NCBI GenBank assembly: GCA_000531095.1
Contig: HG799463.1
Location: 1,040,008 to 1,104,007 of the forward strand
Source: Gemmata massiliana
Lineage (GTDB): Bacteria; Planctomycetota; Planctomycetia; Gemmatales; Gemmataceae
Direction: 5' to 3'
DNA: 64,000 bases
Shown here: positions 1 through 40,577 of the stretch, piece by piece
Numbering within the stretch: position 1 is the first letter of the stretch
Layout: each line of letters starts with the position of its first letter
Position numbers and translations under genes: made by a program
The notes under the pieces: model-generated
The model's input: the letters and a program-made list of their open reading frames with translations, nothing else
The model's database searches: none
What the model was told of the DNA's origin: nothing

Positions 1-972
1 AAGGAAGGGGGGACAAATCCAAGAACAGAAGATGTTGCGCCACTCGCGGTGGTTTTAAGCCCCTCTCCGTTTAGGGGAGGGGTTGGGGAGGGGTTGCAGA
101 CAAAACCTACCCGTCTCACTGTTCTCGTTCGCAATCTCGAACAGCTCGACGCCGTTCTCGCGTGGGCGCCGGGTGACGGGCTGCCGAAGCCGTCCGCGAT
201 CTACGCAGACTTTGAGGATCTGCGGCGCTACAAGGACGCGGTCGCGAAGGCGCGGGCCGCAGGCGTGCCGATCGGATTGGCCCCGGTGCGCGTGTGGAAG
301 CCCGGTGAGGACGGTTTTCAGGCGCTCGTCGCTCGCGCGGAACCCGACATCGTCCTCGTGCGGAACCTCGCGTCGATCAGTTACTTCCGGGAGCAATTGC
401 CGAACGCGCGGCTCATCGGTGACTTCAGCCTCAACGTGGCGAACGAACTCACCGCTGGTGTCTTGATGAGTGCGGGTTTCGAGCGCCTCGTACCGAGTTA
501 CGATCTCAACTGGGATCAGTTCGCGTCAATGGTTCGGCGCGCGCACGCGGACTGGTTCGAGCCGGTAGTTCACCAGCACATGCCCATGTTCCACAATGAA
601 TTCTGTATCTTCGCAGCTTTCCTAAGTAACGGCAAAGACCATACTAGCTGCGGGCGTCCTTGCGACCGACACAAAGTTGAGCTGAAAGATCGCGTTGGCG
701 CGGAATTCCCAGTCGTAGCGGACGCGGGATGTCGCAATACAGTGTTCAACAGCATTGCACAGAGCGCGGCCGAGTACGTCGGACGGATGCGTGAACTCGG
801 GTTACGCACATTTCGCATTGACCTGTTGCGAGAAACCGCAGATCAAGTTGAGCGACTCCTTACCCACTATGCACGCGTTGTCGCCGGATTGGATGACGGA
901 CGCACAACGTGGAGAGACTTAAGCACGCTCAATCAGCTTGGGGTGACACGCGGGACGCTTCAGGTCATCTGA
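1..972 (+). CDS. Peptidase U32 family protein, C-terminal part (runs off the left edge)
   Basis: The frame is open from base 1, so the gene begins upstream of the window; a Met codon at 49 lies inside an inserted repeat and is not a credible start. The visible part carries the U32 core, with a barrel strand pattern (IVLVRNLAS, LIGDFSLNVAN) followed by the cysteine signature FHNEFC, SCGRPC, DAGCRNTVFN. U32 proteins such as RlhA, TrhP and UbiU/V use four such cysteines to hold an Fe-S cluster and act in RNA or quinone hydroxylation; which of these applies here is unknown. The 3' portion from about base 583 is AT-richer and diverges from the displaced copy at 40088-40477 (about 28 differences in about 129 residues by eye). 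In it the usual M-E-H of the FHxEHC motif reads N-E-F. I infer a chimera: host 5' part plus an element-supplied 3' end. Confidence 0.8.
   Translation, partial: KEGGTNPRTEDVAPLAVVLSPSPFRGGVGEGLQTKPTRLTVLVRNLEQLDAVLAWAPGDGLPKPSAIYADFEDLRRYKDAVAKARAAGVPIGLAPVRVWKPGEDGFQALVARAEPDIVLVRNLASISYFREQLPNARLIGDFSLNVANELTAGVLMSAGFERLVPSYDLNWDQFASMVRRAHADWFEPVVHQHMPMFHNEFCIFAAFLSNGKDHTSCGRPCDRHKVELKDRVGAEFPVVADAGCRNTVFNSIAQSAAEYVGRMRELGLRTFRIDLLRETADQVERLLTHYARVVAGLDDGRTTWRDLSTLNQLGVTRGTLQVI
57..106. repeat. Palindromic GC-rich element inserted in frame in the U32 gene
   Basis: The stretch around 60-92 reads as CCCCTCTCC, a short loop, then GGGGAGGGG and further GGGG runs. It translates in frame as SPSPFRGGVGEG and interrupts an otherwise ordinary U32 sequence. 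It resembles the right half of the palindromic element at 60517-60690. It appears tolerated because the frame stays open. Exact borders cannot be set without the upstream sequence. Confidence 0.6.
583..595 (+). repeat. Left attachment core (attL)
   Basis: The 13-bp CCCATGTTCCACA is identical to 40088-40100. Upstream the U32 frame is GC-rich; directly downstream the sequence turns AT-richer (AATGAATTCTGTATC). The core encodes PMFH of the conserved FHxEHC motif, a typical choice of a conserved coding site by an integrase. Confidence 0.7.
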
Positions 973-1115: not shown

Positions 1116-2948
1116 GTGCCAACTGCATACTCTTATCTCAGATTTAGTAGCCCAGAGCAAGCCTCTGGTGATACTCTTCGTCGGCAGAGCGAAAAACGCG
1201 AAGAATGGCTTAAGGCGAATCCCAACGTAAATCTCGACAACTCTCTTTGCCTTACTGACGCAGGCAAATCCGGATGGAACCGCGATAATTTCGATACCTA
1301 TGCATTAGCAGAGTTTATCAAACTCATCGGCGGGCCAATCAAATCCGGCTCTTACTTGTTGGTTGAAAACCTCGATCGTCTCTCACGCGAAAAGATTACA
1401 GTAGCGGTAAGATTGTTTCTTGAAATCCTGGAGAAAGGAGTGACTATTGTTCAGTTGCTTCCTTCTGTGACAGTGTTTAGTGAGGACGAAATTTCTCGCG
1501 AACCGTTTCGTTTGATGCAAGCCATCCTCGAGCTGCAGCGAGGAAAAGCTGAATCAGACCTCAAGTCCGAGCGCATTGCGGGAGCATGGGAGAACAAGCG
1601 GAAGAACCTGAAAAATCAAATAGCAAGTCGAAGGTCGCCGGGGTGGATTCGTGCCGTCGGTGGTGAAGGAAAAAAGATGAAAGACACGGCACCAGGTGAG
1701 GTTCGCTTTGAGTTGATCGAAGACCGGGCAGTGATTGTTCGCCGTATCTTTACGGAATGCATTGAAGGTAGCGGCGTACAAAGTATTGCGAGGAAGCTGA
1801 ACGAAAACAAAATACCAACGATGGGCAGAGTGACGATTAAAGAACGCGGTTGGCTAGGAAAGGAAGTACACGGCGAAAATTATCGAATTCATCAGGTGAC
1901 GTGGAATGAAACCACTGTTTACCAAATCCTCACTTCACGGGCAACGTTTGGCGAATATCAGCCCGGGAGAGGGCGCAAGCGAAAGAATCGCGTGAAAGTT
2001 GGCGAAGTTCGTTCCAATTATTACCCTTCCGCGATAACTCGCGAAACGTTCTTTGCAGCCCAAGCAGCACTTGCAAGTCGAGGCGGGAAGGGGCGAAGTG
2101 GAAAGGGAGCGGGGCGGCGCGGGAATCATGTTAATTTGTTTGCCGGCCTCCTGATTGACGCACTAGATGGCGGTTCTCTTACATATAAACACTCTGATAC
2201 ACGCTCACCCATTCTTGTTCCCGTGAACGCTAAAAAAGGGAAGCAAACTGCATGGACATCCTATCCAGCAGCACCGCTTGAACGCGCCTTGCGATCCGTA
2301 CTGGTCGAAGTGAGAACCGAAGAAATAGGTGAAGACGTTTCACCATCGCTTCGGATCGATGCGCTCAGGGGGCGAAAAAATGAGTTAGAGAAGCTAATCG
2401 CTTATTGGCAAGGTAAAATGGGTAATCTTGCTATCGCGGATAGCGTGGAAACAAAGCTGGCTGAGTTCAGTACTGAACTGCGGGCAGTATCTGCTGAAAT
2501 GGAAAGTGTTGAGCGCGAAGCCGCCAACCCGGCTACAGAAGCTTGGGCGGCCGTCCGCACCCTCGCAGGAACCAATCCAACCGACGACACCGACGAGCTC
2601 CGCACTCGTCTTCGAGCCGCTATCCGACGAACTGTTTCTGCAGTGTACTGCTTTTTTAACGGGGTTGGACGCTATCGCTTGGCACTGGTCCAAGTCTATT
2701 TCCGCAGTGGCGGTTCACGCGGTTGCTTTATCATTTATTCCCCTGGCCGGTCAAACCACCGTGTGAAACGACCTGGTCGAGTTTGGTTCAGCTCTAACCG
2801 TGATGGAATAGGCTACGATGGGGAGTCGGCCCCCAATTACGACCTTCGCGACGGTGTTGATAAGGTATTTGTTCCTGAATGGCTTGCGGAATACCCTCGG
2901 GAAAAGATCGAAGAATTCCTAGCGATGGGTATTGACGTGAATGATTAA
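1116..2948 (+). CDS. Large serine recombinase (integrase) of the element
   Basis: The 610-residue protein has a resolvase/invertase N-terminal domain (YSYLRFSS with nucleophile Ser11 or Ser12, GDTLRRQ, VENLDRLSR). A 'Recombinase' domain follows at about residues 165-330 (GWIRAVGG, IVRRIFTECIEGSGVQSIARKLN, VYQILTSRATFGEY). A coiled-coil-like stretch (about 415-475) and a C-terminal domain come next. This is the architecture of phage integrases of the phiC31/Bxb1 type. The usual zinc-ribbon cysteines after the recombinase domain are missing (LLIDALDGGSL). The GTG start follows AGGAG with 6 nt spacing. Its position 520 bp from the left core fits the role of catalysing entry of the surrounding element. 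Confidence 0.9.
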   Translation: MPTAYSYLRFSSPEQASGDTLRRQSEKREEWLKANPNVNLDNSLCLTDAGKSGWNRDNFDTYALAEFIKLIGGPIKSGSYLLVENLDRLSREKITVAVRLFLEILEKGVTIVQLLPSVTVFSEDEISREPFRLMQAILELQRGKAESDLKSERIAGAWENKRKNLKNQIASRRSPGWIRAVGGEGKKMKDTAPGEVRFELIEDRAVIVRRIFTECIEGSGVQSIARKLNENKIPTMGRVTIKERGWLGKEVHGENYRIHQVTWNETTVYQILTSRATFGEYQPGRGRKRKNRVKVGEVRSNYYPSAITRETFFAAQAALASRGGKGRSGKGAGRRGNHVNLFAGLLIDALDGGSLTYKHSDTRSPILVPVNAKKGKQTAWTSYPAAPLERALRSVLVEVRTEEIGEDVSPSLRIDALRGRKNELEKLIAYWQGKMGNLAIADSVETKLAEFSTELRAVSAEMESVEREAANPATEAWAAVRTLAGTNPTDDTDELRTRLRAAIRRTVSAVYCFFNGVGRYRLALVQVYFRSGGSRGCFIIYSPGRSNHRVKRPGRVWFSSNRDGIGYDGESAPNYDLRDGVDKVFVPEWLAEYPREKIEEFLAMGIDVND

Positions 2949-3154: not shown

Positions 3155-3592
3155 ATGAGTATCGCGAATTTAACGACGAACGAACTGCTCGAGGTCAGCG
3201 GACTCCATCGCAACGTGCTGGAGAAGTGGATCCGAGAGCGGATGCTCACCCCGATGAACGGGGCCGCGGGGTCCGGGCGCTACCGGGCGTGGTCCCCGAT
3301 CCAGGTGACCGCCGTTACGTATGCCGCGGCCGTAGGGCGAGGTGATCCGGTGGCACGAACCGAGGGGTACGCCGCGCTCGTGGCCCGGTTCGTCGCCGGC
3401 CACAGTGTCGAGGAGCTCGAAGTCGCGTTCGCCGAGGGGCGCCGAGTAGTCGTACTCGTCGGGGAACCGCGCCTGATCGCACCTCCGCCCGGCGTGCGGC
3501 TGCCTCCGCATCTCGACCTCGCGCGAACATACCGGCGCGTGCTTCAGCGCCTCGGAGCGTTGGCTCCAGTCGTCGAAGACGCGGGCAATTAA
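3155..3592 (+). CDS. Small HTH protein, MerR/excisionase-like
   Basis: The 145-residue protein has a winged-HTH-like N-terminus (TTNELLEVSGLHRNVLEKWI, then GSGRYRAWSP and the helix IQVTAVTYAAAVGRG), as in MerR/Xis-type DNA-binding domains. The rest is not recognisable. It follows the integrase and precedes the primase on the same strand, a common place for an excisionase or element repressor. The ATG has a strong CGGAGGA site 8 nt upstream. The role as recombination directionality factor or regulator is inference. Confidence 0.6.
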   Translation: MSIANLTTNELLEVSGLHRNVLEKWIRERMLTPMNGAAGSGRYRAWSPIQVTAVTYAAAVGRGDPVARTEGYAALVARFVAGHSVEELEVAFAEGRRVVVLVGEPRLIAPPPGVRLPPHLDLARTYRRVLQRLGALAPVVEDAGN

Positions 3593-3684: not shown

Positions 3685-5883
3685 ATGCCATCTCCCGTGT
3701 ACCTTCGTGCGCTCGAATTCACAATTTCCTCCATCGACTTGACGAATTTGCGCGAGTCCGGGTTAACGGACGAAACCATTCGCACGAACCGGTTGCGGAC
3801 CGAGTACGACGCGAACGAGTTAGCTCGGATCTTGAACCAGTCGCCTTCCAAGCCGTGCTGCCTTGGCGGACTCGTGATCCCCTACCGCGACTTGGATGGG
3901 TGTCTCAACGGGCTCGCTCGGGTGCGCCCGCATTCTGCCCGCATGAGTAACGGGCAACCGGTGAAATATGAGCAACCGAAGAACGCCCCGCTCCGTGCGT
4001 ACTTCCCGATCGCAAGTCTAAACCCGCTCCGGGACGGATCGAGCCCGGTCTACCTCACAGAAGGGGAGAAGAAAGCGCTGGCCCTGTCGCAGTTGGAACT
4101 CGCTGCCGTTGGGCTCGGGGGCATCTGGTGCGGGTGCCGCAAGGGGACCAGGGAGTTGATCGATGATCTCGGCGCGGTACCGTGGAGCGGGCGCCCGGTC
4201 TACATCGTGTTCGACTACGACGCCAAACCGAACACACGCTGGAACGTGTTTGCCGCCACGCAACGACTCGCCTGCGCGCTCCAGAGTGCCGGTGCGGGTG
4301 AAGTGTATCGTGTCGAACTTCCCCCGGGACCAGACGGCACGAAGCAGGGCGCCGACGATTTTCTCGTGACCCACGGTCCAGACGCTTTTCGAGAACTGGT
4401 CGCGCGCTCAACGCCGGTGTCGGCCGCGGCCGTTGCGCCACCTGTAACGCACGCCGAGGGCCGAACCGAGGCCGCGAATGCGATTCGCCTCGCCCACCAG
4501 CGCGGCGAGGCGCTGCGCTACACCGTGGAATGGAACGAGTGGTTGGTGTGGGACGAGTGCCGGTGGAAGCGGGATACGGGGAGTGTCAAGGTGCAGGATC
4601 AAGCAGCTATGGTCGCTCGGGGGCTTTGGGAGGAGGTACGCGGTATCACCGAAGACGGGCTCCGGAAGCAAGCGATCGCGTTCGTCACTGCCAGCAATTC
4701 CGCGAAGGGGGTCGCCAACATGATCAAGCTTGCGCAGGGTACGCTCGCGGTCCGGGCCGAGGAACTCGACGCGGATCCGTGGCTATTGAACTGCGCGAAC
4801 GGAACGCTAGACCTGCGCACGGGAGAACTGCGTCCCGCGGACCCGGCCGATCATCTCACCAAGTTGTGCCCGGTCCCATACGAGCCGGACGCGTCGTGCC
4901 CGGTCTGGGAAGCGTTCCTCGGCAGCGTGTTCGCGGGTGACGAGGAGCTGATCGGGTACCTCCAGCGGTTACTCGGCTACGGGGTGACCGGGAACGTGCG
5001 CGAACAGGTGCTCCCGGTACTCTGGGGGAAGGGGAGCAACGGGAAATCGACCCTGGTGAACGCGGTATTGGGCGCGCTCGGGGACGATTACGGCGGCACA
5101 CCTCCCCGGTCCCTGTTCGTCGCGTCCCGGTCCGGCGAGCGCCACCCGACCGAACTCATGACACTCCAGGGCCGGCGCTTGATGATCGCGCAGGAAACGG
5201 ACGCGGACTGCCGGCTGAACGAGGCCCTGATTAAGCACCTGACCGGGGGCGATAAGGTGACGGGCCGGGGCATGTACGAGAACTTCAGCTCGTTCACCCC
5301 TACCCACAAGTTGATGCTTTGTACGAACCACAAGCCCCTCGTGCGCGGGACCGACCACGCCGTGTGGCGCCGCCTCAAGTTGATCGAGTTCCGCGTGCGC
5401 TTCGAGGGGCAGGCGATCGACACCTCACTGCCCGATAAACTCAGAGCTGAGGCGCCCGGGATTCTCGCGTGGATGGTGCGCGGGTGTCTGGAATGGCAGC
5501 GGGACGGGTTACGCGAACCCGAATCGGTCCGGAATGCGACCCGGACGTATGCGACCGAACAGGACGAAGTGGGACGGTTCATCACGGAGCGCTGTGAGAT
5601 CGGGGACACGTTCTCCGACACCGCCTCGGAACTGTTTAAGGCGTTTAAAGAAGCCCTCCCCGACAGTGACCTCTCGCAGACGGCGTTCGGCCGGGAACTA
5701 TCGGAACGCGGTTACGAGAGCGGTCACGTGACGAGCGGCCCGTTTAAGGGGCGGAAGACGTGGAAAGGACTGCGCCGCACCGGGATGATTCGGTCCGAGG
5801 AGGGAGTGGGGGAAGGAATCGGTACTATCCCCGCTCCCGTAGCCGCGGCACTCCGGCGGAACCTAAACGACCCCGGCGGTTAA
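3685..5883 (+). CDS. P4-type phage/plasmid primase-helicase
   Basis: The 732-residue protein combines a TOPRIM/DUF3854-like N-terminus with a C-terminal D5/P4-family SF3 helicase. The N-terminus shows VIPYRDLDG, VYLTEGEKKALAL and VYIVFDYDAKPN at about residues 65-190. The helicase has a LLNCANGTLDLRTG linker, Walker A GKGSNGKSTLV near 452-462, Walker B-like LMIAQETD near 500, and the sensor region HKLMLCTNHKP. Such proteins start replication of mobile elements. The gene supports an episomal or self-replicating stage of the element. Its 3' end is repeated as a decayed copy at 6499-6690. Confidence 0.88.
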   Translation: MPSPVYLRALEFTISSIDLTNLRESGLTDETIRTNRLRTEYDANELARILNQSPSKPCCLGGLVIPYRDLDGCLNGLARVRPHSARMSNGQPVKYEQPKNAPLRAYFPIASLNPLRDGSSPVYLTEGEKKALALSQLELAAVGLGGIWCGCRKGTRELIDDLGAVPWSGRPVYIVFDYDAKPNTRWNVFAATQRLACALQSAGAGEVYRVELPPGPDGTKQGADDFLVTHGPDAFRELVARSTPVSAAAVAPPVTHAEGRTEAANAIRLAHQRGEALRYTVEWNEWLVWDECRWKRDTGSVKVQDQAAMVARGLWEEVRGITEDGLRKQAIAFVTASNSAKGVANMIKLAQGTLAVRAEELDADPWLLNCANGTLDLRTGELRPADPADHLTKLCPVPYEPDASCPVWEAFLGSVFAGDEELIGYLQRLLGYGVTGNVREQVLPVLWGKGSNGKSTLVNAVLGALGDDYGGTPPRSLFVASRSGERHPTELMTLQGRRLMIAQETDADCRLNEALIKHLTGGDKVTGRGMYENFSSFTPTHKLMLCTNHKPLVRGTDHAVWRRLKLIEFRVRFEGQAIDTSLPDKLRAEAPGILAWMVRGCLEWQRDGLREPESVRNATRTYATEQDEVGRFITERCEIGDTFSDTASELFKAFKEALPDSDLSQTAFGRELSERGYESGHVTSGPFKGRKTWKGLRRTGMIRSEEGVGEGIGTIPAPVAAALRRNLNDPGG

Positions 5884-29183: not shown

Positions 29184-31352
29184 GTGAGTAAAATCGTGAG
29201 ATCCCCGTACCCCAGCCCTCCCGCGGGATTGTCCATGGCTATGAAGCAGCTCGGCGTCCGACTCGGCACAGATCAAATAGAGAAATTCTCGAAGGCATCA
29301 TCAATCCAAGCGATTGAGGAATTGCTCTGGAACGGTTTCGATGCAGACGCCAACCGCATCACGGTTACGGTTGAGCGGGACAACGTCGGCCTCGGCGTGG
29401 CGTGGTTGCTCATCAAAGACGACGGCGCCGCGATCCCCTACGGGCTACTCGATAAGACCTTCGAGACAATCGGAGATTCGATGAAGGCTAGAGTGCGCGC
29501 TACCCCCGCAGGGCGCGTGCCCCGTGGGCGGTTAGGCCGAGGGCGGTTTAAGGCGTTCGCGCTAGCGAAATCCGTTAAGTGGGTTAGCCGTTATCGAGAG
29601 GGTTCGGAGGTACGAGAATTCACTATCCACGGCGACAAGTCGAAGCCTCAACCTTTCATGGCCACCGAACCACAGCCCGCGGCGGGCGGCACGGGTGTCG
29701 AAGTAGTCATCGGGCCTATCGATCGAGCCTGCCCGGAACTGCTTGATCCCTCTCACGTCGTTCGGGAATTGTCCAAACGGATGGCGCTCGGCCTCTTTCA
29801 TCACCCCGTCGAGATCCGCTTCGACGGCGTTCTCGTGAACCCAGAAGAGTTCATCTCCCACCGGCAGGAACTGTCCGTCGGGGTTAACGACGAGTACGGT
29901 GTGCAACAACAAGTGTCACTGACGGTCATCGAGTGGAACGGCATTCCTGCCAAATCGGTATATCTGTGTGACGCAGAAGGGGTTGCGCAGCATGAATGGG
30001 AGAAGCTCGAGATTCCCGCTGGAAAAACATTTTCGTACACGGTCTACGCCCAATCGCTTTTCGTGAATCGCCTTATTTCGACTGACGTCATCGGCCTCGG
30101 TGATCTGAGCGAGGAAGTGAAGAACCTCAAGTCGGAAACTCGCAAGGCCCTTGACGCCCACTTCCGGTCCCGGCTCTCCGCGCTCGCGGGCGGTTTAGTT
30201 GCCGAATGGCGTCAAGATGGCATATATCCGTACCCCGAAACTACCACCACCCCGGTCGAGCAGGTTAGCCGCGAGGTATTCGACATTTGCGCCCAGACGG
30301 TCCATGAACTACTTCCGAGCTTCCAACAGGGATCGAAGGCCAACCGCAAGTTGTTGTTCCGGCTATTGAAGCAGGCTGTTGAGACCGACACCGGCTCTCT
30401 TTGTGATATTTTCGAGCAAGTGTTGTCGCTAAAGAAGGAGCAGCAGGACGAGTTGGCTGGCATTCTGAAGAGTGCACGGCTCGGGGCTGTGATCAGCGCG
30501 GCGAAAACAGTGCTCGACCGGCTCAAGTTCCTCGAAGCTACCGAGCACCTGTTTTTTGGCGACCGCGCCGACGAGGTGAACGAGCCGCACCACCTCCAAC
30601 AAATCCTACTCAAGGAGCTGTGGCTCTTCGGCGACGAGTTCGCTTACGGTCGACAGGAAGCTTATTTGGTCAAGGCGCTTGAGGTGCACGCCGCGCATAC
30701 TGGCCAGTCATTCGATCCGAACACAGGTGCGATTTACAACATCCGGGACGGCAAGAAGAGTCGATTGGACGTCATGCTGAACAGCACCTACGCCCGCACG
30801 GATCCATATAAATTTGAGCATCTAGTGATTGAGCTTAAGCGATCTTCCGTAAAACTCGGGAGCGAAGAGTTGGCCCAAATTGAGAGCTACGCACTGACCG
30901 TCGGGAAGGACAGTCGGTTTGATAACAATCGCACGAAGTGGACTTGGATGCTGATCGGCGTCGAATGCGATGAATACACTGAGGGGCGTAGAATGTCCCA
31001 GGACCGCCCGCCTGGTCTGATCGCGAACCGTGCCGGTATGCAAGTGTGGGTGAAGACGTGGTCGGAAATTATTTCCGCGGCGAAACGCCGGTACGAGTTC
31101 TTCCTCAACCAATTAGAGGTAGAACTGACGGCTGATGATGGGCTGAAATATCTCCGCGAGCGTCACGAGAAGTACCTCCCGTCTTCGCTAAGAGAACCTG
31201 TGGCCACACTGCCTGTGACAACGAGTGCGACCATCGCCGTCGCTCCGTCGAAACCGGCCCTTACCTCATCTGGGATTCTGGCACTTCCGCCAGCAACAAA
31301 CAGTGTGGCCTCCAAAGCGGCTAAGCAAGTTAAGAAGAAAATGGATACGTAA
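29184..31352 (+). CDS. GHKL ATPase with C-terminal PD-(D/E)XK-like domain, likely defence protein
   Basis: The protein has up to 722 residues; the ATG at 29235 is an alternative start with a better family fit. The N-terminus is a histidine-kinase/Hsp90-type ATPase: AIEELLWNGFDADA (catalytic Glu and Asn), IKDDGAAI (D-x-G), and the lid GRLGRGRFKAF. The C-terminus has a nuclease-like core: RLDVML (about residue 527), VIELKRSS (about 549) and AQIESYAL (about 564), in the D...E-x-K...Q order of the PD-(D/E)XK superfamily. GHKL-nuclease fusions (MORC-like or Shedu-related) are frequent in defence islands. The gene lies next to a SIR2 effector, which supports that role. Confidence 0.75.
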   Translation: MSKIVRSPYPSPPAGLSMAMKQLGVRLGTDQIEKFSKASSIQAIEELLWNGFDADANRITVTVERDNVGLGVAWLLIKDDGAAIPYGLLDKTFETIGDSMKARVRATPAGRVPRGRLGRGRFKAFALAKSVKWVSRYREGSEVREFTIHGDKSKPQPFMATEPQPAAGGTGVEVVIGPIDRACPELLDPSHVVRELSKRMALGLFHHPVEIRFDGVLVNPEEFISHRQELSVGVNDEYGVQQQVSLTVIEWNGIPAKSVYLCDAEGVAQHEWEKLEIPAGKTFSYTVYAQSLFVNRLISTDVIGLGDLSEEVKNLKSETRKALDAHFRSRLSALAGGLVAEWRQDGIYPYPETTTTPVEQVSREVFDICAQTVHELLPSFQQGSKANRKLLFRLLKQAVETDTGSLCDIFEQVLSLKKEQQDELAGILKSARLGAVISAAKTVLDRLKFLEATEHLFFGDRADEVNEPHHLQQILLKELWLFGDEFAYGRQEAYLVKALEVHAAHTGQSFDPNTGAIYNIRDGKKSRLDVMLNSTYARTDPYKFEHLVIELKRSSVKLGSEELAQIESYALTVGKDSRFDNNRTKWTWMLIGVECDEYTEGRRMSQDRPPGLIANRAGMQVWVKTWSEIISAAKRRYEFFLNQLEVELTADDGLKYLRERHEKYLPSSLREPVATLPVTTSATIAVAPSKPALTSSGILALPPATNSVASKAAKQVKKKMDT

Positions 31353-31614: not shown

Positions 31615-33006
31615 ATGACCGAAGTGGATCTAATACGTGAATTCGCTGCCGCCCTAACGAAGGGTGCGGGGTGTCTCTTTGTGGGATCAGGCGTGTCCGC
31701 TGGATCAGGCCTGCCCGACTGGCGGGGAGCATTGGCCGACCTGACTAAATCGCGTCTTTCTATTGATCTCAGTAAGACGGACAATTATCCACTCATCGCC
31801 CAATTTTTAGTGAATGATGCATCGGGTAACCGCGGCCCATTGATCAAGAGCTTGAGGGACATCTTTCATAGATCACTTCATCAAAACGACAATCATAAAG
31901 CCATATCATTGATGAATCTGAAGACGATATGGACCACAAACTATGATACAATGCTGGAAGATGTCTTCGCCGGATCGCATATCACTGTTCGCCACACGGA
32001 TGACAATGTCACGTGGACTGTTCCGTCGGCTGATATTGAGATCATCAAGGCGCATGGATGCATCGATAGATCATGTCATGATGATATAGTCATTTCACTT
32101 GAGGATTATGAGGATTATCACGCTAAACGCCCCGCGACAGTTCAGCGTCTTCAGCACGACTTGATAAGCAACTCATTTTTATTCATCGGTTATTCGTTTA
32201 GCGATCCTGATATCGCAAGCGTGCTCACTACTGTTCGTCGATTGAAGAGTACGGCAACGCAGACTCACTATATGATCAAGACGCGTGACATGGAGGCCGA
32301 TTCACGCACTTCACTCTGGCACAAAGACCTTCAGCGTATTGGCATCCAAGTTGTTGAAATTGCCAGCCACGATAAGCTTCCACGAATCTTGATTAACATC
32401 GCAAAGAAATCGGTAGGAAGGACCGTGTATTTTACTGGATCTCACAAAAATCAGTCGGATACCACACATGATTTTTGCGAAGCTGTCGGCAAGGGAGTAG
32501 CGGAAATTTACAAGGACAGCCGAGGGCAAGTCCTCGAAGCGCCCATTGTCATGGACGGTCAATCGACGGGCCTGAGCCGTTCGATTATAATGGCCTTTAC
32601 CAGCAGGCTAATACATCATCGACTAGATATTCGCCGTCACATCGATGTTTACACCAATCCATATTCTCTTAACCCTCAACTTTCCGATGACTCCTCTTTG
32701 CTCCCACAGCTTGAGCGACTAAGGGCGCCGTTGATGAAGAGAACACAAGTAGTCGTAGCATTCGATGGAGGGATTGGAACCGACGCGGAGGTCCGCCTTG
32801 CCCGCGCATACAAGTGCCATATTCTCCCGGTACCGCGGTTAAGTGGCGGGTCAGCATCCAAACTTTTACAGGATAGTGGTATCTCAAGCCACCTGATGAC
32901 GATCTGCCCAAGATACTTGAATAAGGCCAGAAGAAGGCGGTTGAAGCCTGACGATGTTGCCGAAGCTGTTGGCTCGATGCTGGCTTCGCAGGTGGAGGCA
33001 ATATGA
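31615..33006 (+). CDS. SIR2-SLOG protein, ThsA/Thoeris-like NADase effector
   Basis: The 463-residue protein is close in length to Bacillus ThsA. The SIR2 domain (1-260) has the NAD loop VGSGVSAGSGLPDW (23-36), TTNYD with catalytic Asn109, KAHG with His147, and GYSFSDPDI (192-200). The C-terminal domain (267-463) has the SLOG pattern VYFTGS, VAFDGGIGTDAEV (381-393) and LPVPRLSGGSA (404-414). In ThsA that fold binds a cyclic ADP-ribose isomer and triggers NAD depletion and abortive infection. No TIR (ThsB) gene is seen nearby. The next gene overlaps by ATGA and encodes a ThiC-like protein. The sequence is AT-richer than the host. Confidence 0.85.
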   Translation: MTEVDLIREFAAALTKGAGCLFVGSGVSAGSGLPDWRGALADLTKSRLSIDLSKTDNYPLIAQFLVNDASGNRGPLIKSLRDIFHRSLHQNDNHKAISLMNLKTIWTTNYDTMLEDVFAGSHITVRHTDDNVTWTVPSADIEIIKAHGCIDRSCHDDIVISLEDYEDYHAKRPATVQRLQHDLISNSFLFIGYSFSDPDIASVLTTVRRLKSTATQTHYMIKTRDMEADSRTSLWHKDLQRIGIQVVEIASHDKLPRILINIAKKSVGRTVYFTGSHKNQSDTTHDFCEAVGKGVAEIYKDSRGQVLEAPIVMDGQSTGLSRSIIMAFTSRLIHHRLDIRRHIDVYTNPYSLNPQLSDDSSLLPQLERLRAPLMKRTQVVVAFDGGIGTDAEVRLARAYKCHILPVPRLSGGSASKLLQDSGISSHLMTICPRYLNKARRRRLKPDDVAEAVGSMLASQVEAI

Positions 33007-34121
33007 TTGCAAGGCTCAAATCACGAAGGGGATGGGTGGAGGCCGGTCCCGGCTATCCCACCCGTGTCATGGTCCTGATTGGAATGAATGCCGAGGCAGA
33101 GCGAGCTGATCAGGTCATAAAGATTGACCGGTTAACCGCTCTCCCTAGAGGGCCTGACGTCATCGCAGATCTAAGCCAACTCCGTGGCAGGCAGGAACTG
33201 CTCTGGCCACGTGTAGTCAACGACACGTCATGTGTCGCCGCAACGCTACCAATTTATTCCGTCCGAGTGAATCACGGGCGGGTTGATCCCGCGGAGCTAC
33301 TCGAGCGAACGATTGAACAGATCGAGGGAGGCGTCGGCCTAATTACTATCCACCCGACTCCGTGCTTCGACCTCCACACCATGTCACTGTCGCGAGCACT
33401 TCCCTGCACCTCGCGGGGGGGGAACATTGTCGCCACGGACCTTGCCGTCCGCAGCTGGCGGGGGGAAAATGTTTATATGCAGATTCTTCCCGAGCTTCTC
33501 GCGTTTGCTAAGCGTTACGGCACTGTAATCAGCCTCGGAGCCTCTTATCGATCGGGCACCATCTTTGACAGCTTTGACCAAGTTCAACAGGCCGAAATTC
33601 GGCAGCAAATCGACCTTGCCAAGTTGATCGCCGGAGAAGGAGTCGGCGTCATCATCGAATCTCCTGGGCATGCCCGCCCCTCCGACATTCGCCGAGTGGC
33701 CGTCCCTCTTCGTGCCTCCGGATTCCCAATCATGCCGCTCGGACCAATCCCAACTGAGGCCGCGGTCGGACAAGATCACATCTCGGCCGCCATCGGCGCC
33801 ACTTTACTCGGCCTTGAGGGTTGTGCCCACATCCTCGCTGCAGTTACACGGGAAGAGCATACGGGAGGAATTCCCACCGTCGCCTCTACGCTGGAAGCTG
33901 TTGAAGCGGCGCAGGTTGCAGCACGCATCATCGACTTAGAGTGGAACGGTGATGACTCGTTTGACCGAGACGTGGCTCGGCACCGTTCGGCTGACCGGAC
34001 CTGCGTCTCAGGACAGGAACAGGCGGGCTGCTCCCGTTGTGGCTCAACATGTCCGCTCCAGCACTATCCCCGGCACGTGGGCTCGGACTCTCTTCCCCTC
34101 CCACTTGTGCGAGATCACTAG
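33003..34121 (+). CDS. ThiC-like (HMP-P synthase family) radical-SAM homologue
   Basis: The 372-residue protein is shorter than ThiC. ThiC core landmarks are in order: VGLITIHPTP (111-120), TSRGGNIVA (136-144), ISLGASYRSGTIFDS (176-190), VIIESPGHARPSDI (216-229), MPLGPIPTEAAVGQDHISAA (244-263), AVTREEHTGGIPT. ThiC and its BzaF relatives rearrange aminoimidazole ribotide with a C-terminal CX2CX4C iron-sulfur site. Here the cysteines are C343, C346 and C350, a CX2CX3C spacing. The start ATG overlaps the SIR2 stop (ATGA), so the two are made together. I infer that it supplies or senses a nucleotide-like ligand for the effector. A thiamine role is possible but unlikely for an element-borne gene. 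Confidence 0.72.
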   Translation: MIARLKSRRGWVEAGPGYPTRVMVLIGMNAEAERADQVIKIDRLTALPRGPDVIADLSQLRGRQELLWPRVVNDTSCVAATLPIYSVRVNHGRVDPAELLERTIEQIEGGVGLITIHPTPCFDLHTMSLSRALPCTSRGGNIVATDLAVRSWRGENVYMQILPELLAFAKRYGTVISLGASYRSGTIFDSFDQVQQAEIRQQIDLAKLIAGEGVGVIIESPGHARPSDIRRVAVPLRASGFPIMPLGPIPTEAAVGQDHISAAIGATLLGLEGCAHILAAVTREEHTGGIPTVASTLEAVEAAQVAARIIDLEWNGDDSFDRDVARHRSADRTCVSGQEQAGCSRCGSTCPLQHYPRHVGSDSLPLPLVRDH

Positions 34122-38786: not shown

Positions 38787-39515
38787 CTAGTACCGGAGGT
38801 TGCTTGCGTTAAAGTAAGCGACAGCAGTAGCGCGGCTTCCCGACAAGAACCGAGTATTGCCGTGATACTCGCGGTTGTCCGCGATCAAGACGTCGCCAGG
38901 GTAAAGATCCACCGCGAGGTCGGCGGCGGGGAAAACCAACAAGCCTCCAACGAATCCGTCAGAACGCATTGCGGTAAGAGCGCCTAATCCGCCGTCCAAG
39001 TTGTTGGGGTCTTGATGGATCCCCGTGGCGCACAGGTTTGCCGTCACCGTCGTAAAGGAGGTATCGGGAATGAGGCGTCCCGTTGAAATGCTTCCTGCAG
39101 CTGCCGCAAGCGTGGCGTATTCATTCGGACGCGTTTCCCGAAAGGTCAAATCGAGCAATCGCAGCAGCGGAAGCACGTGCCTCCAGTGGGCGGGATGTCC
39201 ACTATTGAACGCTGCGGGTTTACCTTCATAGAAACCCGCGAAGTTATTGTGGAACACCGCATTTTCGCCTGCCGCAATTGGACGCTTGTTGGTTGGCTTC
39301 GCCATTACTTCCAGCGACTTCCTAGACAGGTTACGAAGAGTCGCAGGTACCACACCTTTGCGGTACGAGAGCAGCAGCGTACCGTCCGGCCAATACACAT
39401 CCGCATCCCGCTCTCCGATCACACTGGAATAGTGTCGCTCGTCAGGGTGTCGCCCCTTTAACGTCTCGACTAGTCGACTTGAGACGCGTTTGGAGATTAC
39501 AACGCACTCAACCAC
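38787..39515 (-). CDS. TET/JBP-like 2OG-Fe(II) dioxygenase
   Basis: The 242-residue protein has a double-stranded beta-helix core: TTVTANLCATGIHQDPNN with iron ligands His167 and Asp169, GFVGGLLVFPAADLAVDLYP, GDVLIADNREYHGN with His218, and Arg228 for 2-oxoglutarate. This order and the G-x-V-G-G-L-L-V-F-P strand resemble the TET/JBP branch that oxidises thymine or 5-methylcytosine in DNA, including phage versions. The GTG start sits behind AAGGAGGT inside the preceding gene, so the two are coupled. It could modify the element's DNA; a small-molecule substrate cannot be excluded. Confidence 0.6.
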   Translation of the reverse strand: MVECVVISKRVSSRLVETLKGRHPDERHYSSVIGERDADVYWPDGTLLLSYRKGVVPATLRNLSRKSLEVMAKPTNKRPIAAGENAVFHNNFAGFYEGKPAAFNSGHPAHWRHVLPLLRLLDLTFRETRPNEYATLAAAAGSISTGRLIPDTSFTTVTANLCATGIHQDPNNLDGGLGALTAMRSDGFVGGLLVFPAADLAVDLYPGDVLIADNREYHGNTRFLSGSRATAVAYFNASNLRY

Positions 39516-40011
39516 GAGCCACCTCCTTCCCAGCTTGGCGAATGGCCTCGATGGTCGCGGAGACTACACCCCATTGAGCCCGAAGGTCTTTAAGGACGGG
39601 TTCGAGTTCGTTTGCCATTTCTGGGGGAAGGATGAACTTAACGAGAGCGTCGTCTACCTCTTCTTCTTCTGTCTTCTCTCGCTGGTTCGCGCCGGACTTC
39701 CGTAATGACGCCTGCGAACGGTTACCCTGCGCTTGCTGAAGAGCCTTCCACTGCGTTTCCTCATCGTCGGTAACCGACGATGATTCCGCGAATCGAATGT
39801 AAGCTTTTGTCTGCGTCAGACCCAGCGTCAGGTTTGTCTCGACGAACTCTTCCCACTTTAGCCCTTTCTCCTTTACCATTTGTCTCAGTTCTCGCAGGTC
39901 GGCGCCCTGTTGTCGAGCGTGACGAAGCCTGTCGGGACGGGACCGCTTTTCGCGCTCGTTCACTCGGGTGGCGAAAGTTGCGATTGGATCGAGGTACGTA
40001 GGTTTCGGCAT
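39508..40011 (-). CDS. DUF3102-like small DNA-binding/regulatory protein
   Basis: The 167-residue protein starts at the ATG at 40011 with GAGAGAG upstream. Its centre (KEKGLKWEEFVETNLTLGLT, QTKAYIRFAESSS) resembles the DUF3102 pattern of plasmid and phage proteins. An acidic linker (KTEEEEVDD) and a C-terminal helix pair follow. It lies directly inside the right end of the element and overlaps the dioxygenase gene by 8 nt. It may act as a partition or accessory factor; this is inference. Confidence 0.55.
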   Translation of the reverse strand: MPKPTYLDPIATFATRVNEREKRSRPDRLRHARQQGADLRELRQMVKEKGLKWEEFVETNLTLGLTQTKAYIRFAESSSVTDDEETQWKALQQAQGNRSQASLRKSGANQREKTEEEEVDDALVKFILPPEMANELEPVLKDLRAQWGVVSATIEAIRQAGKEVARG

Positions 40012-40087
40012 TGTCTCTCTCGAGAAAAGCAACGGTCGAAACGGTTTTTGGCAGGATCTGCTTAGTAGCGAAATCACACGAAACTGG

Positions 40088-40100
40088 CCCATGTTCCACA
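40088..40100 (+). repeat. Right attachment core (attR)
   Basis: The 13-bp CCCATGTTCCACA is identical to 583-595. Upstream the sequence is AT-richer element DNA (AAATCACACGAAACTGG); directly downstream it is GC-rich host DNA (TGGAGCACTGCGTGTTCGCG) encoding the standard M-E-H-C. Confidence 0.7.
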
Positions 40101-40477
40101 TGGAGCACTGCGTGTTCGCGGCGTTCCTCAGCACGGGCAAGGACCACCGCGATTGCGGGCGCCCGTGCGAGGTCCACAAGGTCGAACTCCGGGACCGCGT
40201 CGGCGCCAACTTCCCGGTGCTGCCCGATACCGGGTGCCGCAACACCGTGTTCAACAGCGTGGCCCAGAGCGCGGCCGAGTACGTGGGGCGCATGCGCGAG
40301 TTGGGACTGCGCACGTTCCGCGTCGATCTGCTGCGCGAAACGCCCGCGCAAGTCGTCTCACTTCTGGAGCGCTACGCTCGCGTGATCGCCGGGCGCGACG
40401 ACGGGCACGAAACCTGGCGCCAGCTCCGCGTGTTGAATCAACTCGGTGTGACACGCGGGACGCTTCAGGTCATCTGA
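40088..40477 (+). pseudogene. Displaced original 3' end of the U32 gene
   Basis: It encodes PMFHMEHCVFAAFLSTGKDH, the CGRPC and GCRNTVFN motifs and the same final TLQVI as the copy ending at 972, but has no start of its own. High GC codon use marks it as the ancestral host copy. Similarity with the left copy continues about 100 bp past the stop (TGATCTAATTGCTCA, GAGATTTCGCTAACT) to the ACTCCTA at 40573. Confidence 0.8.
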
Positions 40478-40577
40478 TCTAATTGCTCACCCGCGTAACC
40501 TCTTTCTCAGGATGGTTACAAATCATGGCCATTTCAAGAGATTTCGCTAACTGGGTCAATCGCGTCAGAATAAACTC

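Follow-up and report, generated by a model that had tools for sequence, protein, structure and literature searches.

The closest known systems to the protein described here are the Tet_JBP proteins (PF12851) of phages, such as Nonlabens phage P12024L_26, Pelagibacter phage HTVC112P gp18 and the enzyme of Caulobacter phage Cr30. To our knowledge the way in which TET/JBP enzymes of phages locate their DNA is not settled. A link between ParB-like proteins and TET may already appear in earlier papers on the gene neighbourhoods of phage TETs. Fusions of ParB with N6/N4 methyltransferases have been reported from phages, dioxygenases not being mentioned in the main text (PMC12704722).

We analysed a window of 64,000 nucleotides from Gemmata massiliana, which holds a gene for a dioxygenase of this type and an overlapping partner gene (Table 1). 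The protein shares with phage Tet_JBP its sequence profile, the HxD...H...R arrangement, an N-terminal T-x-x-R and the HGNT motif, and in HTVC112P an overlapping partner gene likewise lies upstream of the TET gene. Unlike the phage proteins, it is not detected by Pfam, has no R..PYCR loop and shows changed pocket residues. The locus also differs in lying on a bacterial island. Genes for TAGT, amino acid:DNA transferase, radical SAM and P-loop kinase proteins neighbour viral relatives. In the window, Pfam scans of the genes next to the dioxygenase found none for a glycosyltransferase, an amino-acid transferase or a base kinase, unlike in many phage relatives.

Table 1. Features of the dioxygenase pair and of the island, by position in the window
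Feature	Position	Strand	Remark
U32-family peptidase gene 3' end, left boundary	565..972	plus	DNA repeat comparison
Large serine recombinase, island left end	1116..2948	plus	
Small HTH-like protein	3155..3592	plus	92% identical to gene after TET in G400 prophage
DUF3854/D5-type primase-helicase	3685..5883	plus	DUF3854 also follows TET in G480 element
TET/JBP-type Fe(II)/2OG dioxygenase	38787..39515	minus	242 aa, GTG start at 39515
R228, aligned with 2OG-binding R1896 of TET2	38832..38834	minus	alignment
Distal iron ligand H218	38862..38864	minus	alignment with 129 relatives
HxD iron ligands H167 and D169	39009..39017	minus	alignment with 129 relatives
Site without the family's R..PYCR loop	39219..39227	minus	alignment, models
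R78, invariant in 129 relatives	39282..39284	minus	alignment
DUF3102-like partner	39508..40011	minus	167 aa, ATG at 40011; 8-nt overlap with dioxygenase gene
Partner C-terminal tail, residues 124-164	39520..39642	minus	matches tail of ParB-like phage TET partners
Shine-Dalgarno AAGGAGGT for dioxygenase	39521..39528	minus	inside partner gene
U32-family peptidase 3' fragment, right boundary	40070..40477 (start approximate)	plus	repeats gene end at 972

Family membership of the dioxygenase

The preliminary description had called the 242-residue protein TET/JBP-like, and profile, predicted structure and catalytic residues bore this out, so that by family it is almost certainly a true, divergent TET/JBP dioxygenase. 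It scored 157 bits with a profile made from 129 relatives, the query having been left out, against 2.8 bits for the best of 2,000 shuffles, and it matched PHROG 24024 (phrog_24024) at E 1.9e-28. Its phage homologues were found by tblastn, and every one examined was a Tet_JBP protein passing the Pfam cut-off. As a query the dioxygenase gave no match in Pfam (PF12851 model included) or NCBIfam, and a Pfam Tet_JBP search of its own genome did not pick it up. No relative was found with the dioxygenase alone in scans of viral contigs, genome contigs and plasmids, nor anything in the PDB with this sequence alone. For a profile containing the query, TET2 was the sole meaningful PDB match (E 1.1e-5), and it was so again (E 1.9e-5) for a second alignment that was led by a viral relative and included the query. 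The tree did not place the query, which sat on a long branch (2.93) with unsure placement.

The AlphaFold model of the dioxygenase had high confidence over the full length (pLDDT 94.3, pTM 0.90) and showed the feature of fold membership, a double-stranded beta-helix nearest to TET structures. It aligned best with human TET2 (Z 21.7, rmsd 2.7, 233 of 242 residues), followed by NgTET1 (Z 18.1), CcTet (18.1) and CMD1 (17.8), while matches outside TET/JBP did not exceed 15.0 (AlkBH3 Z 15.0, FTO 14.1). An intact viral relative (L108) gave a fold ranking much like this one. The best match is thus not a small-molecule hydroxylase of the phytanoyl-CoA type, which had been considered beforehand; this type appeared neither among Pfam matches nor among top fold matches of the dioxygenase. 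The fold common to TET2, NgTET1, CcTet and CMD1 covers nearly the whole protein and includes the iron and 2OG residues, whereas identity to these eukaryotic enzymes is 9-17% and the protein is much shorter than TET2.

The H-x-D, distal H and R read earlier from the letters line up with the 129 relatives as H167-x-D169, H218 and R228, positions that are 99-100% conserved. The iron and 2OG residues are all kept at about 30% total identity, and the retained positions include R78, G94, F154, T156, T158, N160, H167, D169, G176, G190, P196, H218-G-N-T, R228 and Y234. The position of R78 appears to resemble that of R1261 in TET2. Other positions have changed. The R..PYCR loop, which is 98-99% conserved in relatives and characterises the phage-type subgroup but not TET/JBP in general, is absent; going by the alignment, it seems to belong where TET2 has a loop that touches DNA. 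The G-D after HxD has become N171-N172 (relatives have D where N172 stands), V-H ahead of the distal His has become N-R, the Arg found eight residues past R228 in relatives is N236, and the C-terminus is short and lacks the Cys motif of relatives. In a HMMER alignment, with TET2 residues counted from H1382, N172 (D+3) lies opposite TET2 N1387 and N236 (R+8) opposite H1904, both of which we take to be positions contacting 5-methylcytosine (5mC); the first is thus as in TET2 and the second differs.

Altogether 6 of 21 residues conserved at 98% or more are lost, the highest loss among 130 aligned sequences. Together with the loop deletion, the short C-terminus, the long branch and the solitary position of the pair at the island edge, this could suggest a decaying prophage remnant, left from a phage otherwise gone, with a dioxygenase inactive or on its way out. 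We regard such decay as unlikely: the reading frame is open, the strong ribosome site and the coupling are kept, the model is confident across the whole dioxygenase, and drift would hardly be expected to leave the iron and 2OG residues, R78 and HGNT untouched at such low identity.

The upstream partner and its relatives

Translation of the dioxygenase had been proposed to start from a strong ribosome site inside a DUF3102-like gene, and we found AAGGAGGT 5 nt upstream of the GTG, within the final codons of the partner gene. The window partner had no usable Pfam match (PF11300 included). The name DUF3102-like nevertheless suits it, since over 88 aa it shares 51% identity with a protein of genome G400 that matches DUF3102 (PF11300) at E 2.3e-6. 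A PADLOC search with dioxygenase and partner matched no defence family.

Among 101 further genomes of the same order, two (G400 and G480) contained a homologue of the dioxygenase, and no relative was found in 293 genomes sampled across the phylum. Each of the two TET genes overlaps a DUF3102-like gene immediately upstream; the pairing is thus kept despite TET identities of 27-31%, and the coupling seen in the window is real. Both enzymes keep the R..PYCR loop. In G400 the pair opens an early operon of a prophage; next come a gene for a small HTH-like protein and one for a Toprim/AAA primase-helicase, with capsid genes adjoining. In G480 a serine recombinase gene, just past a gene that resembles comM in sequence, is followed by the pair and a DUF3854 protein. 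The G400 prophage, which carries an intact TET, also contains overlapping genes for an N6/N4 DNA methyltransferase and a GT2-type glycosyltransferase (L182:14209-15734); the glycosyltransferase could modify DNA.

Viral relatives were sampled as 145 loci in 51 clusters at 80% identity, 44 of which had a visible upstream ORF. This ORF belonged to one and the same ParB-like family in 39 clusters, and in 37 of those it abutted or overlapped the TET gene; Pfam called ParB_N in 18 of 45 sampled viral partners. When the G400 partner protein was used as query, no DUF3102 partner turned up in viruses. Window partner and ParB-like partners share the gene slot and the C-terminal tail and differ in the N-terminal part, which is DUF3102-like in the former. 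The last 45 residues or so are common to the DUF3102-like partners and the ParB-like family (hhalign E 4.4e-6, score 43.3; best of 200 shuffles E 0.054, score 18.4). The group as a whole gives a strong tail match and the window protein by itself a weak one (E 0.038, against 1.4e-5 for G400 and 0.005 for G480), the C-terminal position being the same in all.

DUF3102 was also found fused to N6/N4 DNA methyltransferases at three loci of the order, one in the same genome as the window (L193) and the others in related genomes (L190, L195), and hence accompanies DNA modification elsewhere. Given the shared tail and these fusions, we read the partner as a putative DNA-directed adaptor whose tail is predicted, from sequence, to serve in TET docking or targeting. 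A broader reading, which we hold as possible though doubtful, is that phages and mobile elements guide their TETs with an adaptor of two modules, a constant docking tail and interchangeable heads that would bind DNA or act as a switch, ParB-like in most viruses and DUF3102-like in these bacterial elements; the window protein would then be a variant of changed base specificity, most likely acting on thymine. A neofunctionalised oxygenase that kept the TET fold and acts on RNA, a nucleotide or a small molecule is very improbable: the missing loop, which may face DNA, and the differing pocket residues would suit it, but the enzymes with the closest solved folds are all active on bases of DNA or RNA, and the domain of the partner occurs fused to DNA methyltransferases.

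The island and its boundaries

The pair lies at the right edge of an island of about 39 kb, both boundaries of which carry a repeat of the 3' end of a U32 peptidase gene; this supports the position within an element that had been proposed earlier. The right-hand fragment is 75% identical in DNA to the gene end at 972, and the large serine recombinase lies at the opposite end; the name U32 rests on a weak Pfam match and on reading of the sequence. Since the same fragment pattern recurred in G417, G402 and G406, this looks like a genus-wide integration site. In G417 (C1:3699667-3722105) one full-length U32 copy adjoins three U32 3' fragments, a pattern suggestive of tandem integration by several elements. 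Similar sequences (TTTCA.GAGATTTCGCTA) at 1031-1069, 40047-40084 and 40530-40555, after both U32 gene ends and as an inverted copy at the right boundary, are possibly parts of attachment sites.

The window also encodes a ThsA-like SIR2-STALD protein (PADLOC ThsA E 1e-65), whose gene overlaps a ThiC-like radical SAM gene by 4 nt (31615-34121, plus strand); this odd pairing might be a variant resembling Thoeris. The gene immediately before the ThsA-like one (29184-31352, plus strand) encodes a 722-aa protein with a HATPase_c_3 domain, which had no PADLOC match.

Substrate and possible role

No C5-cytosine methyltransferase (PF00145) was found in G400 and G480, the latter genome being only 84% complete, or in the sampled flanks (a few kb) of the 145 viral loci, where a positive control worked, the same query detecting distant C5 methyltransferases. 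These absences favour thymine, and our best reading of the sequences is that the dioxygenase would be a phage-derived pyrimidine-methyl hydroxylase, with thymine favoured over 5mC as its substrate.

Oxidation of 5mC to 5hmC in host- or element-methylated DNA, as a means to escape or tune restriction, is quite unlikely. TET2, NgTET1, CcTet and CMD1 act on 5mC, N172 aligns with TET2 N1387, the Melnitz relative sits after an HhaI-type C5 methyltransferase, and the genome of the window has two C5-cytosine methyltransferase genes, so that 5mC could be available. Both of these genes are on other contigs, however, and TET occurs in G400 and G480, and at the viral loci as sampled, without a detected C5 methyltransferase. 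In another genome (G401:C1:1643796-1645734) a C5-cytosine methyltransferase gene directly adjoins an additional ThyX gene, an arrangement that recalls nucleotide-modification clusters of phages.

The presence of thyA and folA on the element had been taken as a hint of DNA-base modification, a suggestion that our results did not support. By the published rule for dUMP-type enzymes (PMC8670742), ThyA has canonical active-site residues (PCH, PFN), and we therefore dropped the idea that it makes a modified nucleotide. The gene, the only thyA here, lies about 3.1 kb from the dioxygenase with other genes between and supplements ThyX; it gives little support for DNA modification.

We give about an even chance to the following mechanism as a whole, which builds on sequence comparison and structure models. 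The translationally coupled pair, which lies on the serine-recombinase island, would be phage-derived, and the DUF3102-like protein would be an adaptor that binds DNA and brings in the dioxygenase through its C-terminal tail. This enzyme would then hydroxylate a DNA pyrimidine on its 5-methyl group, thymine being favoured, with 5-hydroxymethyluracil as product, and 5mC possible. The hydroxylation might mark the DNA of the mobile element and perhaps shield it from restriction.

These predictions would place TET-type chemistry on a bacterial island and on a related prophage and element; in the genomes of these two no C5-cytosine methyltransferase was found, which points to thymine as the substrate there. 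With a conserved partner whose head is exchangeable and whose tail is constant, TET targeting becomes directly testable, and if the adaptor reading is true, programmable base oxidation could follow.
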